The notes beneath the pieces were generated by a model that was given only the letters and a program-made list of their open reading frames with translations, was not told the origin of the DNA and ran no database searches. Position numbers and translations under genes: made by a program. A stretch of 64,000 bases of DNA from Hyaloraphidium curvatum (Eukaryota > Monoblepharomycota > Hyaloraphidiomycetes > Hyaloraphidiales > Hyaloraphidiaceae). Location of the stretch: positions 496,001-560,000 of the forward strand of contig JAIVFI010000023.1 in NCBI GenBank assembly GCA_025558095.1. Direction: 5' to 3'. Shown piece by piece: positions 45,902-56,000 of the stretch; position 1 is the stretch's first letter, and each line of letters starts with the position of its first letter.

Positions 45902-47308
45902 TTAAAGCCACGCTCCAGGTTTGCACGGCGGCGGCCTGCTGCACGGTGTGCCGAAGTCCTTGGGCAGCTTGTGCGCCGGTCCGTCCTTCTCCGCCACGCA
46001 CGCCACCTTGTGCTTGGCCCAGTCCTTGGTTTGGCACTCCTTGCTGCAGTACCGCGCCACCATGCACCAGGAGCAGCGCAGGAACTTGACCTTCGTGAAG
46101 GGCGAACCCGGTTTCTTCACGGCCACAGCACTGCATCTGTTGTCGCACAAGTCGAAGTAGTCAAACATGTCCAATTCGTTAGCCGAGACGTCCGCAAACT
46201 CGGCGTCGCCCTCCTGCGAGCCAAAAGCTTCCGGTTCCAGGCCAGCGAGGTCGAGCAGATAGCGCGCCGACTGATCCCTGTAGTTGCACAGCTTGTCCCG
46301 CGAGCGCAGCGCCAACACGGCGGAGGGCGGACGGTCGTTTCGCAGCTTGGCGGCCGAGCGGAGCTCCCGGACGTAGTCCTCGAAAGGCACCGCGAGACCC
46401 TGGCTCTGCTGCACCTTGAGGTGCTCCACCCAGTGCTTCGGCCTTGGGCGGATGACGTCGTCCAGGATCTTTGCAACCCTCGTGAAAGTGCTCAGAGCCT
46501 GCAAAACTTCCTCCGGCATCCGATTGGAGAGATCCTCCTGGGAGCGAACTCGCATCCAGTCAGGCGAGAGGGCAGCGAACAGTGCGATGGCATCAAGCAG
46601 CTCGGGATCCTCCGAGAGGCGGCGCCGCACGCCTCCGCTCATGGTCATCAATGCCAGTATTGCCACGGCGTCCGCGGCGGTCATCCCGAACAAGGCCCCG
46701 TAGACTTCGGTCGCCCACCGTCGCGAGTGTGCATCCGGATGGTCGACGCCGGGGAGCACCGCGCCCTACGCCTCCCTCCTTCCCCGGTCCACAAACACCA
46801 TGATGACCCTGCGCAAGACCGGGCCGGCATCCCGGAACAGGTTGTGGACGACAATGTTCTGTATCTCCTCGGGCACATCGACCTTCTCCTCGGCGGGTGC
46901 CTGAGTCCCGGGCGGCAGGAACCGCTTGAGCAGCCCCCAGTTCCCCCAGTCTTTCCCGTGCAGCACGACGTGGAGGGCCGCGAGCACGTCGCCGAGACAT
47001 CTCTTGGTGACGTGCACATCGTGCTGCGGGACGGCCTCGTAAGGGTGCAGGTGGCCTCCGGATGTGCCGTGCCGCGCCATGACGGCTCCCCCCGGCGCCA
47101 GTGCGGCCGGCGGCGTGCGGGTTCCGTCCAGGAACGCGTAGTATGCCGGCGCGAACTTGCGGCAGGCGTGCGCCGCCAGCGAGTTGGCGAACTTGCCGGC
47201 ATCGAAGGTCCTCCAGAAGTCCGGGCGGCCTTCGTATCCCGGCCCGTACCTCCGCGGCTGCGATTCGGGGCCACTGGATCCCGATGAGCCCGCGACTTGG
47301 CCAGACAT
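45902..47308 (-). CDS. MYND zinc-finger protein interrupted by an in-frame TAG
   Basis: One frame runs from the ATG at 47308 (MSGQVAGSSGSSG) to the stop at 45902, but holds one TAG at 46768-46766 between VLRRVIMVFVDRGRREA and GAVLPGVDHPDAHSRRWATE. A 42-nt in-frame GT..AG stretch ending in that TAG (GTCATC..GCGTAG) could be an unusually short intron; otherwise the gene is a nonsense allele. The middle part is helical with no known domain. The C-terminus carries a MYND finger: CSWCMVARYCSKECQTKDW, AKHKVACV, preceded by CDNRCSAVAV, giving C-x-C pairs plus the terminal H-x3-C. MYND fingers bind proline-rich peptides. Its 5' end is 300 bp from the Csp-like gene at 47609, divergently placed. Confidence 0.7.
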
Positions 47309-47608: not shown

Positions 47609-48143
47609 ATGGCCCTGCAGGCGGAACACTACGCCAAGGCCGGCTCCTCCTCCTTCCCCGCCAAGATCTCCGACGTCCCGCACGCCGCGGCACTCGCCGA
47701 GATCCGCATCCTCAACGCCTGCATCGCCGCGTGCACCGCCTGCGCCGATAGGGCCGTCGAGGTGCCCTTTTCTTGTCCTCGCGGTTTTCCGCGCCGGGGG
47801 GAGGGACGAGCTGACCCACCCTCGAACGGCAATGCAGGAAGGAATGAACTGCTGGCGCGACTGCCGCCGCTGCACCGCCGCGTGCCGCGCCATGGCCGAG
47901 TTCGTCAGTCTCAACGCGCCGCAGCAGGTCGCGATGGCCAGGATCGTCGCCGAGTGCTGCGAGGCGTGCGCCGAGGTTTGCGGGGAGGTGGGTGGCTTCT
48001 CCCCCTCCCGGCCCCGGGAACGGTGCTGATGGACCGCCGGACGCCTGGAAAAGCACGCCAAGCACGGGTCGGAGCACTGCAGGGATTGCGCCGAGGCGTG
48101 CAGGAAGTGCGTGGAGGTGTTTGGAGGCAGGAGCATGGTCTGA
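47609..48143 (+). CDS. four-helix-bundle copper-storage-like protein (DUF326), copy 1
   Basis: Exons 47609-47761, 47838-47987, 48054-48143 (393 nt, 130 aa; introns 76, 66 nt; every intron is between codons). Fifteen cysteines lie in helices with C-x2/3-C spacing: NACIAACTACADRA, GMNCWRDCRRCTAACRAMAE, AECCEACAEVCGE, HCRDCAEACRKCVE. This is the DUF326/Csp layout, in which cysteines line the core of a four-helix bundle and bind many Cu(I) ions; in bacteria Csp proteins store copper. No signal peptide is present, so cytosolic as for Csp3. A near-copy lies at 52281-52809. The assignment is by motif pattern; copper binding is inferred. Confidence 0.88.
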
Positions 48144-48315
48144 AGCGGGGTCGCGGACTGGAGAAGATGGAGGCGTCTTTGGATTCCAGGGGCCAGGAGA
48201 CGATCGGGGCGGTTGGACAATTGCAATAGCTTGTCGATCAATGCATTTCAATCTGATTCTTCAAAAGAAAAGGCCTGCCCACGGACCCACCGAAAACTAC
48301 CTCATCGTCGTGTGT

Positions 48316-49137
48316 TCATCTCTTTTTGGAGCCGCATACGGCCTTGTGGCGCTTCCAGTCGTTCCTCTGGCACGCCGCGTCGCAGTACCTTGCGCTGGGC
48401 TTGCATGTGCCCGCGCATTTCAGCAGCGCCAGGTCCTTTTTGCCGCACGCGTCGCACGTTTCGCGCTCCACGGGCTTCGGGGCGCCCGACCCGTCGGCAG
48501 CCGTCGGGTAGATCGTCGCGTACTTGCTCTCCCCCGGGCGCTCGACGGTTATCGGCTTCCCGGGCGGTGGTTGCTCCTCCCTGAACACGACCGCAACCCC
48601 CATGTCGGCCATGCTCCCGAGGTTGTCCCGCGCCAGCGCCAGGTACTCCGCCGCATGGCTCCCCAGCGCGACTCCCGTCTCGGCGGCCACAGTCCCGAAC
48701 CGCACGGCTTCCCTGTATTGCGCGGCCGCGTCGTCCCTCTTTTGCGCCACGTAGTACGCCCGGGCCAGGGTGCAGGCGGCGAGGATCCCCGCCTCGGGGT
48801 CCGAAGTCCTCCTCGCCGCCCGCAGCGCGGCCTTGACGGCGTCGTGCGCTGCAGGCGCGGTCCCAAGCGTGATCTCCTCGTGCGAGAAGGCGCTCCCGAG
48901 CGCGTGCAGCGAGTCGAGGTACATCGCCCGCATGGTCAGCGAGCCGTGGGACGACCCGAGGCCGGCGTCGGCGATGGTCATCTCCGACTGCGTGAGGCCC
49001 TTGGCGACGAAGGCGTCGACGGCCTTGGCGTACGCCTCGGCCGCGCCGCGCGGGTCGCGGTCCAGGATGTAATTCTGCCCGGCGAGCGAGAAGTGCCGCA
49101 GCGCGTCGCGCGCGGCCTGCTTCTGCGCGGCCGTCAT
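48316..49137 (-). CDS. MYND zinc-finger protein
   Basis: Single exon, 273 residues. The N-terminal 200 residues are helical, TPR-like (QNYILDRDPRGAAEAYAKAV, LAACTLARAYYVAQKRDDAA, EAVRFGTVAAETGVALGSHA, AEYLALARDNLG). The C-terminus is a MYND finger: CDACGKKDLALLKCAGTC, SARYCDAACQRNDWKRHKAV-C. Paired C-x2-C, C-x4-C, YC-x3-C and H-x3-C zinc ligands are all present. Such helical-repeat/MYND proteins are common in expanded families in some fungi; the role is presumably protein-protein interaction. Its start faces the F-box-like gene at 49289. Confidence 0.88.
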   Translation of the reverse strand: MTAAQKQAARDALRHFSLAGQNYILDRDPRGAAEAYAKAVDAFVAKGLTQSEMTIADAGLGSSHGSLTMRAMYLDSLHALGSAFSHEEITLGTAPAAHDAVKAALRAARRTSDPEAGILAACTLARAYYVAQKRDDAAAQYREAVRFGTVAAETGVALGSHAAEYLALARDNLGSMADMGVAVVFREEQPPPGKPITVERPGESKYATIYPTAADGSGAPKPVERETCDACGKKDLALLKCAGTCKPSARYCDAACQRNDWKRHKAVCGSKKR

Positions 49138-49288
49138 GAGCGCGGCGGCAAAGGCAAGGGCGGGAACGAGGCGTGGCCTGAAACCGGGGTTGGTTGCGAG
49201 TTTGCGGTTGGGGCGGAGTTGGCGAGTCGCGACCGCGTTTCGCGTTCACCAGTTCCCGGGAAAGGTCACTTCTCGCCGCGGCAGAACG

Positions 49289-49981
49289 ATGGCCAAATCG
49301 AAACGCGCGAAGGCCGCACCCTCGCGGCGCGTCGGCCAGCCGCGGGCCCCGAAAGACGGGGATGCGACGCTCGTCCCGCTCCCCCCGGAGCTGCTCCTCG
49401 CGGTCATGGAGATCCTGGAAGGCCAGGGACACAAGCGCACTTTGCTGGAGTTCCTTTGGGCGTTCAAGGATATGCTCGCGCTCGGGATGGGCCTGCTTGT
49501 CCGGAGCCTCCACCTGCTTGTCGCGACGCTGAGCGAGCTCGACCCCGACCGCCTCCTCGACAAGTTCCGCGGCCTCCTTTCCGTCGAGCTGACACCTTGG
49601 AAGCTTTCGCGCGTCGAGAAGCTCTCCGTGGCGATCTGGGAGCTGGACCCTTTCCACGCGGAGCTCCTGCGGGAGATTGCGCCGCCGCTGAAGGTCCTCG
49701 AGATCCGGGCGACGAGCCGTCCCGGGGTCGAGCGCTTCCTGGATTCCATAGGCACTGCGCCTGGCCGAAGCCTGGCAAGACGAAGAGGAATTCTGAATGG
49801 AGACCGAGGGCGTCGGCATGGTCCCGTTTGGACGGTGGGACATCTCTTTGGACGAGCTGCGGGAGGAGAAGGAGGAGAACGAGGGGGGGTGAGGGGGGAA
49901 GAAGGGGGGAGGGGAGAGGAGGGATCCGCAGATGTAGGGGCTGCGGAGTCCCATTCCTTTTCTGTCAATGTTGAGTTTTGA
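49289..49981 (+). CDS. F-box-like hypothetical protein, C-terminus uncertain
   Basis: Open frame of 230 codons from the ATG at 49289 (MAKSKRAKAAPSRRVG). Residues 28-60 look F-box-like (LVPLPPELLLAVMEILEGQG, LLEFLWAFKDML), followed by leucine-rich helical sequence (LVRSLHLLVATLSELDPDRL, LKVLEIRATSRPG). Beyond about 49750 this frame becomes Gly/Arg-rich low complexity. A neighbouring frame reads ALRLAEAWQDEEEF-stop, and downstream the same frame reads METEGVGMVPFGRWDISLDE, so a frameshift or unrecognised intron near 49750 is likely. Function not assigned beyond possible SCF adaptor. Confidence 0.5.
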   Translation: MAKSKRAKAAPSRRVGQPRAPKDGDATLVPLPPELLLAVMEILEGQGHKRTLLEFLWAFKDMLALGMGLLVRSLHLLVATLSELDPDRLLDKFRGLLSVELTPWKLSRVEKLSVAIWELDPFHAELLREIAPPLKVLEIRATSRPGVERFLDSIGTAPGRSLARRRGILNGDRGRRHGPVWTVGHLFGRAAGGEGGERGGVRGEEGGRGEEGSADVGAAESHSFSVNVEF

Positions 49982-50093
49982 GGCGATCTGAGGTTGCTGC
50001 AGGTCCTCGAACGGGCAGGGCGGGTCCGCGAGATTGCGTGCATGACGCTTCCTCCCAGGCCGCCACCCGCTGTCACCCAACAAACAGAGCGCA

Positions 50094-52140
50094 ATGGGGG
50101 ACGCCGCGGAGGCGCCCAAGCTGGCCACGCTGCCGCACGATGCGCTGTTCCTGATCTCCGCGTTCCTGCCGCCGCCGGACCTGCTCGTGCTGGGCGCGGC
50201 GGGCCGCGTGCTGCGGCAGCGGGTCGGCGCCGACGCGCAGCTGTGGCGGTCGGCGCTGCGGCGGCACTTCCAGCTCGACGCCGCGTTCCGCTCCCTCGAT
50301 TCACTGCTGCCGGGCGGCGAGACGCGGCGGCCATTTTCCGCGACGGCGGGCGACAACTGGTTCCGCTGCCTGTATCTGAAGGTGCTCGCCCGCGCAGGCC
50401 GCTGCCTCGGCTGGTGGATCAGCGACCGCCCGTTCCTCGGCGAGCTGCTGCGCGTGTCGCTGCTGGTGGGCCCCGGCGAGGGCGGCGAGCCGAGCGTGCG
50501 CATCGCCTACAGGCGGGCGCTGGTCGAGAACCTCGCCGCTCCCACCTTCGTCACCTGCGGATCGGTCGTCGTGGGCGCAGACGGCCTGCCGCTGTTTTCC
50601 ACTGGGGGCACGTCAAACCAGGCGCCCATCGGCGTGGCCGGCACATGGACCGCGCTGGTGCCCGTGACCGTCAACGTGCTCAAGGAGCGGCTGTCGTACG
50701 CCGAGATCTTTTCGCTCGTCGTGCCCGACGGCCTGCTGCCAAGGTGGAAAACCGATCCTGCGGTTGCTGATCGTGAGCACGAGACGGCGACATCGGCTGC
50801 GGACGGCAAGGGCAAGACCGTCGTCCGCGCCTCCCCGCCAGACGACGACCCAGCCCTCAAGCCCTTCATGATCTGCCGCGGCACCGCGGCCGCCCGCATG
50901 GCCCGCGCTCCCTCCGTCGCCGACGACGGCGGCGACGACCTCGCCGGGCGCCTCAAGGCCCTGTCGCTGGCCTCGGCAGGCCTGCTCGACCGCGACGAGG
51001 TGCTCCTCAGCCACGGGCCGGACCACCTCGCCGAGCTGCGGTGGTACAAGGAGCTGCACGACAGCGGACGGCCCGGAAGCGGGCGCCTCCCCGGTGCGCG
51101 AGACCGCTCCTTCTGCCCGCACATCTTCTAACCTCGGCGTCGGCCTTCCAGCGACCGACCTCTACAACCCCTCCTTCATCCTGTCCCCCTCCCATTTCGC
51201 CGTGGACTGCCCCCGTTCGTGCCACTCGTACATATCCCACCACCAGGCCTCCGCCGCGGCCGTGCACGGGGTCCGCCCCGGCGACGTCGGCCTCATGTTC
51301 GACCCCTCCTCGCTCCCCATGCACCGGCAGCAGCAGCACCAAGGAGGGGAAGGCGAACTGCTGGAAGACCTGGAGTACGACAGCGGGGAGGAGGAAGGCG
51401 GGGCCGGCGGGGAGAGCCGGGCGGCGCAGCAGGCGGCGGGGCAGCACGTGCCCCATGCGCCGCTGAGCACCGCGAGGGGGCCGGTGTTCCCGGCGAGGTA
51501 CTTCCGGCTGAGGGTGGAGAGGCCGATGTGGCACGGGGCAGGGGAGATGCCGGCACCGGGGGAGATGGGGTGGGAGCCGGAGCTGCTGCAGGGCCTCTGG
51601 GTATCCACCTACAGGTTCTTTTGCCCGCGCTGCCGTTCTTTCCCCGCTGACCGTTCCTCCCCTCGATTGCAGAACCCGCCCCCCCGCCTTCCTCTCCGTC
51701 GTCATCCACCGTTCCCCGTACCCCCACCCCCCGGAGCTCCGCGCCTACAAGCTCACCGGCAACCCCAACGTCCCCCGCGGCGCGCTCTCCTTCACCGCAT
51801 CCATGGACCCCCTGCCCCCGGGCGCCGGCAGCCCCGTGGCGGACGAGGACGAGGAGCTGCCGGACCAGGTGGTGTACCAGCACCTTCCGCCGCCGGGGGT
51901 GAGGGAGAGGGTGAGGATAAGGGGGGTGAGGGCGCGGTTCCCGGCGAGGAAGCAGTTCGCCACGCCCGCGGTACGTTGCCCTCGCAGCCGCGGGGCATGC
52001 GGTGCTGACGTTCGGTGCAGTACCGAAACAGCTACTTCAGCCCGTCGGAGCTGCTGGTCGTGGGCAACGACGAGTTCGTGGTGTTCAGCTACAAGCACGC
52101 GCACATCACTCGGTACAGGAAGATGCCCGCGGACCCTTGA
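50094..52140 (+). CDS. F-box protein, FBXO31-like
   Basis: Exons 50094-51093, 51152-51614, 51673-51970, 52021-52140 (1,881 nt, 626 aa; introns 58, 58 and 50 nt). The N-terminal F-box reads LATLPHDALFLISAFLPPPD..LWRSALRRHF. The middle has the FBXO31 layout: NWFRCLYLKVLARAGRCLGW, RYFRLRVERPMW, LQGLWVSTYRTRPPAFLSVV (joined across intron 2), YKLTGNPNVPRG (compare the KITGDPNIP motif of FBXO31) and a final exon NSYFSPSELLVVGNDEFVVF..YKHAHITRYRK. FBXO31 is a substrate adaptor of SCF ubiquitin ligases that recognises damaged or modified C-termini and cyclin D in animals. The family resemblance is in motif order, not close identity; substrates here are unknown. Confidence 0.82.
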
Positions 52141-52280
52141 GACGGGGGCGGGCCTTTTCACTTTGCATTTGGAGTTGGATTGATAGATTCGTTGCTCGGC
52201 AAGATGCTGATGCTGCTAGGCCCGCCCGAACGTCGCATAGGCCACGGGCAATCCCAAGACGCCCCTCGTCTCCCACCGCC

Positions 52281-52809
52281 TCAGACCATGCTCCGGCCCC
52301 CGAAAACCTCCACGCACTTCCTGCACGCCTCGGCGCAATCCCTGCAGTGCTCCGACCCGTGCTTGGCGTGCTGTTTCGCCCGTTCGGTCCGTGAGCACCG
52401 TTCATCTCCGAGTGGAGAAAGCCACCCACCTCCTCGCACACCTCGGCGCACGACTCGCAGCACTCCGCCACGATCTTTGCCATCGCGACCTTCTGCGGGG
52501 CGTTGAGCGAGACGAACTCGGCCATGGCGCGGCACGCGGCGGCGCAGCGGCGGCAGTCGCGCCAACAGTTCATGCCCTCCTGCCGTGCGGGCGGGATCAG
52601 CCTCCGGCTTCCGGACACCATGCGGGAGGGAGAAGGCAGGGTACCTCGACGGCCCTGTCGGCGCACGCAATGCATGCCGCGACGCACTCCTGGAGGATCC
52701 TGATTTCGGCGAGCGCGGCGGCGTGCGGGACGTCGGATATCTTGGCGGGGAAGGCGGAGGCGGGGGCGGCGGCGGGCGCGTGGCCCGCGTGGCCCGCGTG
52801 CGAGGACAT
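52281..52809 (-). CDS. four-helix-bundle copper-storage-like protein (DUF326), copy 2
   Basis: Exons 52809-52645, 52579-52430, 52370-52281 (405 nt, 134 aa; introns 65, 59 nt), with the same exon boundaries and phases as copy 1 at 47609. The second exon differs from copy 1 at only about six residues (CRRCAAACRAMAEFVSLNAP, QKVAMAKIVAECCESCAEVC), and the third exon encodes an identical peptide. Fifteen Cys are conserved. The N-terminus differs: MSSHAGHAGHAPAAAPASAF has three His and no such run exists in copy 1, so copper delivery or localisation may differ. It is convergent with the FBXO31-like gene (ends 140 bp apart). Copper binding is inferred from the family. Confidence 0.88.
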
Positions 52810-53063
52810 GTCGGCGGAGAAAAGGCGGGCAATGGGGCGCGGCGCAGGGGTTGCGGGGTTGGGGAGCGATTTGGGCACGTGCGGCCGCCCCGCCCCGCCC
52901 GGAACATCTTCGGGAGATCCTGGGTGCACCCGGGTCGGCCGCCTCTCCAAATCTTTGAAGCGCGTCCTTCAGACAGAGCTTCGTTCGACAGAGATCGGCA
53001 TCGCGCCGCTACAATACATTAACTTAGCCCCTGGCGCCCCGGGGCCGGGTATCGACCACCGCC

Positions 53064-56000
53064 TCACTTCCCCCCCGCCGCCTCCGCCGCCTCCCCGGCC
53101 TGCCCGTGCACCTCCGCCCCCTTCTGCGCAGCCAGCGCCTCCCACCCCTCCGGTATCCTCCTGCACGCCCTGATGGCCGCCGCCAGCGCGTTCATGTCGA
53201 TCGGCTTGGAGATGTAGGCGTCCATCCCCGCCTGGAGGCACGCCTCGCGCTCGTTCAGCAGCGCGTTGGCGGTCAGCGCGATGATGGTCGGCTGCCGCGC
53301 CTTGGGGATCTCGTCGCGGATGCGCTTGGTGGCCTCGAAGCCGTCGAGGATCGCTGGCATGGGAGGAATGAGGTCGGGCAGGGCATGTACCTGCGGCGAG
53401 CTGGTACTCACGCATCTGCACGTCCATGAGCACGCAGTCGTACACCTTGTCCGTGATGGCGTTGACACCCTCCAGGCCGTTGTTGGCCACGTCGGCCGAG
53501 AACCCGGCGCGCTTGAGCATCCGCAGCGCGATCTGCTGGTTGATCAAATTGTCCTCCACCAGCAGGATCCGCAGGCCCACGTCGGCCTGCCAGTCCGTCG
53601 AGGGGGTGCGGCTGACGTCGGCGGCGGGCTGAGGGGCGGCGAGCTTGTCGGGGGATGCGTGGTTGGAGCGCGGAGGGAAAGGGGCGGGCTGGGAAGCCGA
53701 GACGGCCTCCCAGGTCTGGTTGGAGCGGGTAGAGGTGGGGCCCGTGCGCACGCCGCGGGCGGTGTCCCAGGCTGCCAGCGCGGCGATCGACGCGGGGTTC
53801 ACGGTGCCGTTCATTGGGGCTGGGCGTGAAACGGGACCGGTCAGCGGCGAACTGGTCCCAAACGGCCGAGGAAGCCTACCGCTCGGCTGCCGCTTCTGCT
53901 TCCTCCCCGCGCTGTCCCTGCTCTGCCTCGCCGGCTCCACCACAAGCACGTCCACCAGCACGTCGAACATCCTGCTCGCGCGCACTGGCTTGGTCAGGAT
54001 CCGCGTAAAGTTGGCCTTGCGCGGGTCGTGCATGTCCAGGTCCTTGCCCAGCGAGGTGAGCATGATGAGCGGGATCCCGGGGTCGATCTTGCGGATCTCG
54101 TCCGAGAGCTCCAGCCCGTCCTGGTCCGGCATCGCCATGTCCAGGATGCACACGTCGAACCGCTTGTTGCTGTGCGCCAGCAGGTCCAGCGCTTCGAGCG
54201 CGTTCGAGACCGCGACCGTGTCCGTCTTCCATCCCAGCAGCTGCAGCGTGAGCACCCTCCTGTTCGTCGACACGTCGTCGACGCAGAGGATCCGCTTGCC
54301 CGACAGCAGCGTGTTCTCCTCCATGTGCTTTGGCCGCGAGATCTCGCTCTCGAGGGCACCCGGTGCGTCGAGCGTGAAGTGGAACGTAGACCCCACCCCG
54401 ACCTTGCTCTCGACCCATATCCGCCCGTTCATCTTCTCCACCAGCCGCTTGGATATGGCCAGGCCCAGGCCGGTGCCCCCGTACCGCCGCGTCGTGGAGG
54501 CGTCCACCTGCGAGAAGCTCTTGAACAGCCTGTCGATCCGCTCGGCGGGGATGCCGATGCCCGTGTCGCGCACGTAGAAGTGCAGCGCGTAGTTCCGCCG
54601 CCGGAGCGGCTGGTCCGACACGGCGAGCGAGGCGGGGCCGTCCTCGGGCTTCTTGGCAAAGTCCGCGAGCACGGGCACCTTCGACATGGTCGCGCTCGCG
54701 CGCTGCAGCCCGGGCCGCTTGGGGGCGCCGTCGGCCGCCGCCGGGGGCGAGGAAGACACCCCGCTCCGGGGGATCGTGAGCGCCTTGGGCGGCGGCGCCC
54801 GCTCCTTGGGCACTGCGACGACGCCAGACTGCAGGGTCTGCGTGGCGGTGTCGCTCCGCCGCCGCTCCAGCTTGGCCGGCCGGTCCAAGGAGTCCTTGTC
54901 GTCAGTCATGCTGATGAGCTCCACGCCCACGACCACCTCCCCGGCCGGGGTGAACTTGACGGCTGGCAAACACTCATCAGCAAACGCAAAGTTGATCCGT
55001 GACAGTCGCCCACCATTGTTCATCAAATTCAGCAGGATCTGCCTCAGCCTCCCCACATCCCCCACGATCCCCAGCGGCAGGTTGGGCTCGAACACGCACA
55101 TGACCTCGATCCGCTTCTCGGCAGCCTTGGCCGAGACCAGGTCCAGCGCCTCCTCAACGCACTCGCGGAGGTTGAAGGGGGCCATTTCGAGCTCCAGGTG
55201 GCCGGATTCGAGCTTGCTGAAGTCTGAGGGGGGTGCGGGGATCAGCCGATGTGGGAGCGGTCCGAGGGGTAGGCCCACCGAGGATCTCGTCAATGATCCG
55301 CAGCAGCGCGTTGCCAGAGTTCTTGATTACGCTGGCAAACTCGCGCTGGTTCGAATTCAGATCCGTTTCCAGAAGAAGATCAGTCTGTGGGTTGGGTGGA
55401 TCAATCAAAGGAGCTTCTTTCCCGGCGACACCATCCCTTCCCAACCCACCATCCCAATGACGCCGTTCATCGGCGTCCTGATCTCGTGCGACACTGGAGA
55501 CAAAAGGGTCAGGCCGTTCCCCAAGGCCGCCAAGCCCCACCCACTGGTCGCCAGGAACGCCGACTTTGCCTGGTTCGCCAGCTCCGCGCTAGCCTTGGCG
55601 CGAATCAGGTCCCGTTCAAACTTCTTCATCGGCGTCACGTCCCGCAGCACCAGCAGGCTGCCGCGGGACTTGCTCTCGTACAAGTCGATCGTCCGCTGCG
55701 AGCGGTGCGGCACAACCAGCTCCATGGGGCCGTTGCCGGTGCCGCTCGGGCCGGGGACGACCAGCTCGGGGCGCAAGGACCGCCGCCGGAGCTCGTTCCC
55801 CGCCGCGTCGCGCGCCTTGGCCTGCTCGACCATGCTCGCGAACGAGGAGCTGATGTGCGTCACGGCGGGGTCCCCGGCCTGCGCCGCACTGCGCTTGTCC
55901 CCCGCGATGAAGAAGTCGTCCTCGTCGTCGTCCGGGCCCGAGAGCGACGGCGACGTCTCCTGCGCCAGCAGCGTCGTCACCGAGACCAGGTAGATCCTGG

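Follow-up and report, generated by a model that had tools for sequence, protein, structure and literature searches.

Copper storage within a protein fold is treated as a bacterial device, and metallothioneins mainly do the job in eukaryotes, according to PMC10155185. Among the copper storage proteins (Csp), BsCsp3 of B. subtilis provides the multicopper oxidase CotA with copper (PMC9484137) and the gonococcal Csp carries 15 Cu(I) per monomer (PMC12510493); by analogy, the two may be precedents for a copper buffer or for a store from which enzymes draw the metal. A 64,000-nucleotide stretch of Hyaloraphidium curvatum DNA (assembly GCA_025558095.1, contig JAIVFI010000023.1, positions 496,001 to 560,000; hereafter the window) was analysed because of two related genes, A and B. 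The organism belongs to Monoblepharomycota and is placed in Fungi by NCBI. The best overall explanation, given a probability of about 0.7 on the basis of sequence and a predicted fold, is that the genes encode a pair of Csp-family copper storage proteins nearer to the cytosolic Csp3 than to Csp1, with a remodelled copper pocket.

Gene A (47609-48143, plus strand) and gene B (52809-52281, minus strand) each have three exons and encode proteins of 130 and 134 residues with 15 Cys each. The first-pass annotation, made from the DNA alone, had described two intron-split genes in opposite orientation about 4.1 kb apart with the same exon phases, and this description held: the gap is 4137 bp with the 3' ends facing, and the four introns are GT...AG, lie in phase 0 and occupy corresponding places in the two genes. 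Spliced gene A agrees letter for letter with P0001, a hypothetical protein deposited for H. curvatum (DFJ74DRAFT_770710), which bears out the proposal that these are intron-bearing eukaryotic genes. When the protein database was queried with spliced B (107 candidates), P0001 was the sole protein at E <= 0.001. The product of gene B was not found among database proteins of 0.55-1.75 times the query length, so that gene B may be unannotated or annotated with a different structure. No further genomic copy was found in a six-frame, exon-by-exon search of 31.9 Mb on 55 contigs with PF03860, protein B and TIGR04401.

Kinship with the Csp family, as originally proposed, was indicated by matches to the PDB sequences of SlCsp3 (E 1.3e-5) and MtCsp1 (E 4.5e-4). 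Structure prediction, which had been suggested as a check, agreed: the predicted monomer of A is a four-helix bundle (helices 25-52, 57-75, 81-103 and 108-128) with the fold of known Csps. In the model, intron 1 (after residue 51) comes where helix 1 ends and intron 2 (after residue 101) where helix 3 ends, so that exon 1 encodes helix 1, exon 2 helices 2 and 3, and exon 3 helix 4. With PF03860 (DUF326), whose gathering score the whole proteins do not reach, stretches of 21.6 bits, above that score, turned up in the genome search; P0001 carries PF03860.22 in the database. From sequence, predicted fold and the positions of Cys and His, A and B appear to belong to the Csp family and to be closer to Csp3 than to Csp1, with neither being a classical Csp3; because the complete prokaryotic Csp3 Cys set is absent, they were filed as Csp without that label. 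The pair is a believable fungal counterpart of a known bacterial protein kind, with a putative copper role.

The pocket was compared with SlCsp3 and 198 prokaryotic rows, comprising 119 database proteins (P0121-P0239) and 79 of 80 loci; the remaining locus, L074, was left out since its match lay on the other strand. The rows were picked by profile or C-terminal Cys pattern and are not a random sample. The Csp1 rows of the alignment (A3) are ambiguous in helix 1, and therefore no Csp1 Cys counts were drawn from it. Thirteen of the 15 Cys of the fungal pair lie at SlCsp3 Cys positions and, judging from the alignment, would face the bundle core. The mouth Cys 38, 54 and 111 of MtCsp3, converted to SlCsp3 numbering by a constant offset of 3, are kept as Cys45, Cys56 and Cys110 of protein A, and the fourth would map to Ala49. 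Three mouth His (His102, His105 and His109) are present in the alpha3-loop-alpha4 region; each of the outer two agrees with 197 of the 198 rows, and the middle one is displaced relative to SlCsp3 His111.

The remodelling is shared by both copies. Glu31 and Leu35 stand where Cys is found in 154 and 160 of the 198 rows, and Ala49, Val88 and Phe124 where it is found in 197, 198 and 197. At positions 31, 35, 88 and 124 the pair has none of the four Cys, and no prokaryotic row has one or fewer. SlCsp3 Cys27, which corresponds to position 31 of A, forms a copper bridge at the hydrophobic end (PMC10155185); positions 35, 88 and 124 would lie at the same far end, given the up-down-up-down course of the bundle. 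Two Cys were gained. Position 60 corresponds to SlCsp3 Asp61, MtCsp3 Asn58 and RkCsp3 Met46, which the same source describes as a ligand where mouth and main core meet, and Cys60 is shared by seven rows (L028, L032, L037, L064, L065, L069 and L073). These come from Chthoniobacterales, Larkinella, Pseudonocardiales, Methanoperedens and Thermoleophilia and are natural parallels of the fungal change. At position 91, Cys is outside the five commonest residues, which account for 193 of 198 rows, and none of the 70 other rows of A3 has Cys there.

A working model can be proposed in which the proteins are cytosolic, Ctr transporters bring in Cu(I), and the metal would enter at the His/Cys mouth and be bound by Cys thiolates midway along the bundle. 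Glu31, Leu35, Val88 and Phe124 would plug the hydrophobic far end, where bacterial Csp3s hold copper, and Cys60 would take the place of the Asp, Asn or Met ligand between mouth and core. Given the plugged end and Cys60, fewer Cu(I) per monomer would be expected (roughly 10-15, not 18-20), with exchange rates unlike those of MtCsp3. The result may be a smaller, mouth-facing cytosolic Cu(I) store that buffers copper and supplies the copper enzymes of the fungus, alongside metallothioneins or in their place. One copper-fist match, six Ctr stretches on five contigs and three multicopper-oxidase matches in the genome indicate that the fungus probably takes up copper, senses it and puts it to use. 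A bolder version, which is considered doubtful, is that A and B represent a Csp subfamily of eukaryotes that has a site plan of its own, having a plugged far end, a Cys at the gate between mouth and core and a mouth-proximal, fast-exchange cytosolic store, with the His-rich N-terminus of B capturing or handing over copper and the copies having different roles. Protein B without its Met would start Ser-Ser-His, a possible amino-terminal Cu(II) site.

The two genes were also compared codon by codon. Among 116 shared codons, 22 have a silent difference and 9 an amino-acid difference, giving a nonsynonymous rate (dN) of 0.054 and a synonymous rate (dS) of 0.394 by NG86; dS was 0.82 by YN00. That dN is far below the NG86 dS points to purifying selection on the pair. 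Introns 1 and 2 are alike beyond shuffled sequence (0/500 shuffles as good for each), as are the 300 bases of 3' flank (0/200), which indicates DNA-level copying of the whole stretch in inverted orientation. Likeness of the 5' flank is not clear (6/200 shuffles as good); the 5' end diverged or was replaced after copying. The N-terminal divergence noted at first was borne out, gene B having an N-terminus of its own. An identical third exon had also been claimed, which is true of the peptide and not of the DNA, where 4/90 nucleotides differ. The approximate count of six changes in exon 2 proved to be 5 amino acids (16/150 nucleotides); in the part of exon 1 that the two genes share, 4 amino acids and 17/108 nucleotides are changed.

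The first-pass annotation had suggested gene conversion or recent duplication, neither of which was supported. Silent changes affect 4/30 codons in exon 3 and 18/77 in exons 1 and 2 (p 0.30), and amino-acid changes 0/30 and 9/86 (p 0.11); as the exons do not differ significantly in either class, gene conversion is not needed. Only raw nucleotide changes, 4/90 in exon 3 and 33/258 elsewhere, stood out, with p 0.028 for exon 3, which had been singled out once the data were seen, and p 0.037 when the three exons were tested together. The dS values, about 0.4-0.8, do not favour a recent event.

Several observations, on family scores, promoters, pocket and trees, weigh against a Csp-type copper store of prokaryotic origin. 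The NCBIfam Csp1 model (TIGR04401) gave 44 and 45.7 bits, short of its cut-off of 100, the whole proteins scored 18.9 and 18.8 bits with PF03860, under the gathering score of 20.4, and Foldseek returned a single match at E <= 0.001. A scan with copper-fist consensus forms found no motif upstream of A; upstream of B there was one match to each of two loose forms, unconvincing against expectations of 0.22 and 0.17. Four of the SlCsp3 Cys are missing, as is the final Cys of helix 4, which could mean a different metal preference. The possibility was considered that this Csp-fold, thiol-rich protein now acts as a sink for soft metals in general (Cd, Zn, Ag) or as a redox buffer and not as a dedicated copper store. 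In its favour, the pair lacks several near-invariant Cys and has gained two others, the six neighbouring frames that were scanned do not look copper-related, and a bacterial cadmium-binding-protein paper uses the term DUF326 31 times (PMC6727835). However, the pair retains 13 Cys at SlCsp3 positions, the Csp fold and all three His of the mouth, and in Csp3s both the Cys core and the mouth His bind Cu(I) (PMC10155185); the sink is judged unlikely.

The trees place the pair insecurely. Tree 1 had 133 rows after thinning (25/119 Csp1 proteins, 60/119 short proteins, 46/79 loci, A and B), and in it A and B formed one clade (100/99) within a Csp3-type group made up mainly of Actinomycetota and Chloroflexota, on a stem of 1.99 and joined near the long row L088, which is a warning. 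Tree 2, with stricter thinning, had 55 rows (28/119 short proteins, 25/79 loci, no Csp1; L088, L047, L032 and L031 left out) and a midpoint root that carries no meaning. There the pair stood beside the short Bacteroidota-type P0137 and P0174 with support of 91/81, under the starred level, on a stem of 3.84. The attachment differs between the trees and the long stems make the placement unsure; the pair is divergent, and the trees do not settle the donor.

These long stems would also suit vertical descent of the same protein from an early eukaryote or mitochondrial ancestor with loss in most fungi, as would introns at fixed places and the lack of a near prokaryotic relative. At E 1e-7 the fungal profile matched 16/1189 genomes in four phyla (7/296, 1/398, 3/194 and 5/301; best 45 bits), where 3 of the 16 are centres chosen for holding a Csp and scoring extended to only some of the candidates from the first look. 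Vertical descent is nevertheless quite unlikely, because P0001 was the sole row with a eukaryotic name in three protein searches, two of which covered the best 120 of 2143 and the best 120 of 7973 with most rows unnamed; the other organism-named rows were bacterial. The preferred course of events is that the fungus long ago acquired the gene, probably by transfer from a prokaryote, and that the gene then took up introns and underwent inverted duplication, after which the N-termini would have diverged. That the relatives found are prokaryotic could also point to bacterial contamination of the assembly. This is scarcely credible, as both copies contain introns, the public model is spliced in the same way, MYND-finger genes adjoin on the same contig, and GC content at third codon positions is 0.92-0.93 against 0.93 in a stretch of the neighbouring histidine kinase.

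Further searches were made with individual profiles and queries. The profile containing MtCsp1 drew mainly Csp1 of the twin-arginine translocation (Tat) type among the best 120 of 2143. Profile A1 gave 36 pattern stretches in genome contigs and 105 in viral contigs, none of which was confirmed, and tblastn of plasmids with protein B gave no match. The gonococcal records in the plasmid collection (L010), about 2.17 Mb, are evidently chromosomes, judging by that size.

In the window, gene A is flanked by MYND-finger genes at 45902-46765 and 48316-49245 (both minus strand; 39.8 and 36.1 bits). The latter lies between A and B together with an F-box-like frame that is below the Pfam cut-off. At about 50046-52183 (plus strand), neighbouring open frames contain this F-box-like start (19.5 bits, cut-off 24.3) as well as a Cyclin_D1_bind stretch (24.5 bits against a cut-off of 22); these frames probably form a single gene, split by introns, that lies between A and B. 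Immediately upstream of gene B, a histidine kinase ATPase and two response-regulator stretches occupy 52969-55326 (minus strand). The frame of gene B is open upstream of its ATG (52810-52968, minus strand) and contains RPIARLFSAD with no in-frame ATG; the gene B model may lack an upstream exon or targeting peptide.

Table 1. Exons and introns of genes A and B (positions in the window; residue numbers of protein A).
Feature	Position	Strand	Remarks
Gene A exon 1	47609..47761	+	N-terminus and helix 1 (Cys38, 42, 45); matches part of public protein P0001
Gene A intron 1	47762..47837	+	Phase 0, GT-AG; resembles gene B intron 1
Gene A exon 2	47838..47987	+	Helices 2 and 3 (Cys56, 60, 63, 67, 91, 92, 95, 99)
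Gene A intron 2	47988..48053	+	Phase 0, GT-AG; resembles gene B intron 2
Gene A exon 3 with stop	48054..48143	+	Mouth loop and helix 4 (His102, 105, 109; Cys110, 113, 117, 120)
Gene B exon 1	52645..52809	-	N-terminus of its own, MSSHAGHAGHAP..., then helix 1
Gene B intron 1	52580..52644	-	Phase 0, GT-AG
Gene B exon 2	52430..52579	-	Helices 2 and 3
Gene B intron 2	52371..52429	-	Phase 0, GT-AG
Gene B exon 3 with stop	52281..52370	-	Helix 4; peptide same as that of gene A

None of the papers listed by literature searches on copper storage or DUF326 concerned a fungal Csp, and a search on copper storage combined with chytrid listed no paper. The protein kind is already known; what is new is its remodelled pocket, the occurrence as a pair of intron-split genes and the retention of that pair under selection. 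A fungal gene pair that has introns and is maintained by selection would show the storage device working in a eukaryotic cell. Moreover, the Cys changes are natural variants, and since they fall at positions thought to govern the copper number and mobility of Csp3, the pair would directly test those ideas.

Fungal metallothioneins buffer Cu(I) by thiolates and are short unstructured peptides; the job proposed for the pair is the same, whereas the pair is predicted to be a folded helical bundle. Compared to Csp1 (MtCsp1 and NGO1701, which are Tat-exported), both N-termini lack, by reading, the twin-arginine of the Tat signal, the His motif is of the Csp3 type, the Csp1 model score is 44-46 bits against the cut-off of 100, and a 100/100 branch splits the pair off. 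The highest identity in the collected set, 46% over 98-99 residues, is to P0138, a short Bacteroidota-type four-helix bundle copper-binding protein (compare P0131 of Dyadobacter), which shares the stretch HxxHGxEHCRDCAEACRKC with the pair. However, P0138 has 19 Cys by reading, including far-end Cys absent from the fungal proteins, its type has no long N-terminus, and in the short Bacteroidota-type proteins the link from helix 1 to helix 2 is longer by 5 residues (L011, L014 and L066). Relative to the Csp3-type prokaryotic rows, the pair is without the last helix-4 Cys, a position beyond the end of the SlCsp3 fragment used. In contrast to the classical Csp3 proteins (SlCsp3, MtCsp3 and BsCsp3), the fungal pair is without Cys at SlCsp3 positions 27, 31, 45 and 93, has Cys for Asp61 and a new Cys91, has an alpha1-alpha2 connection 5 residues shorter, and is encoded by intron-split fungal genes.

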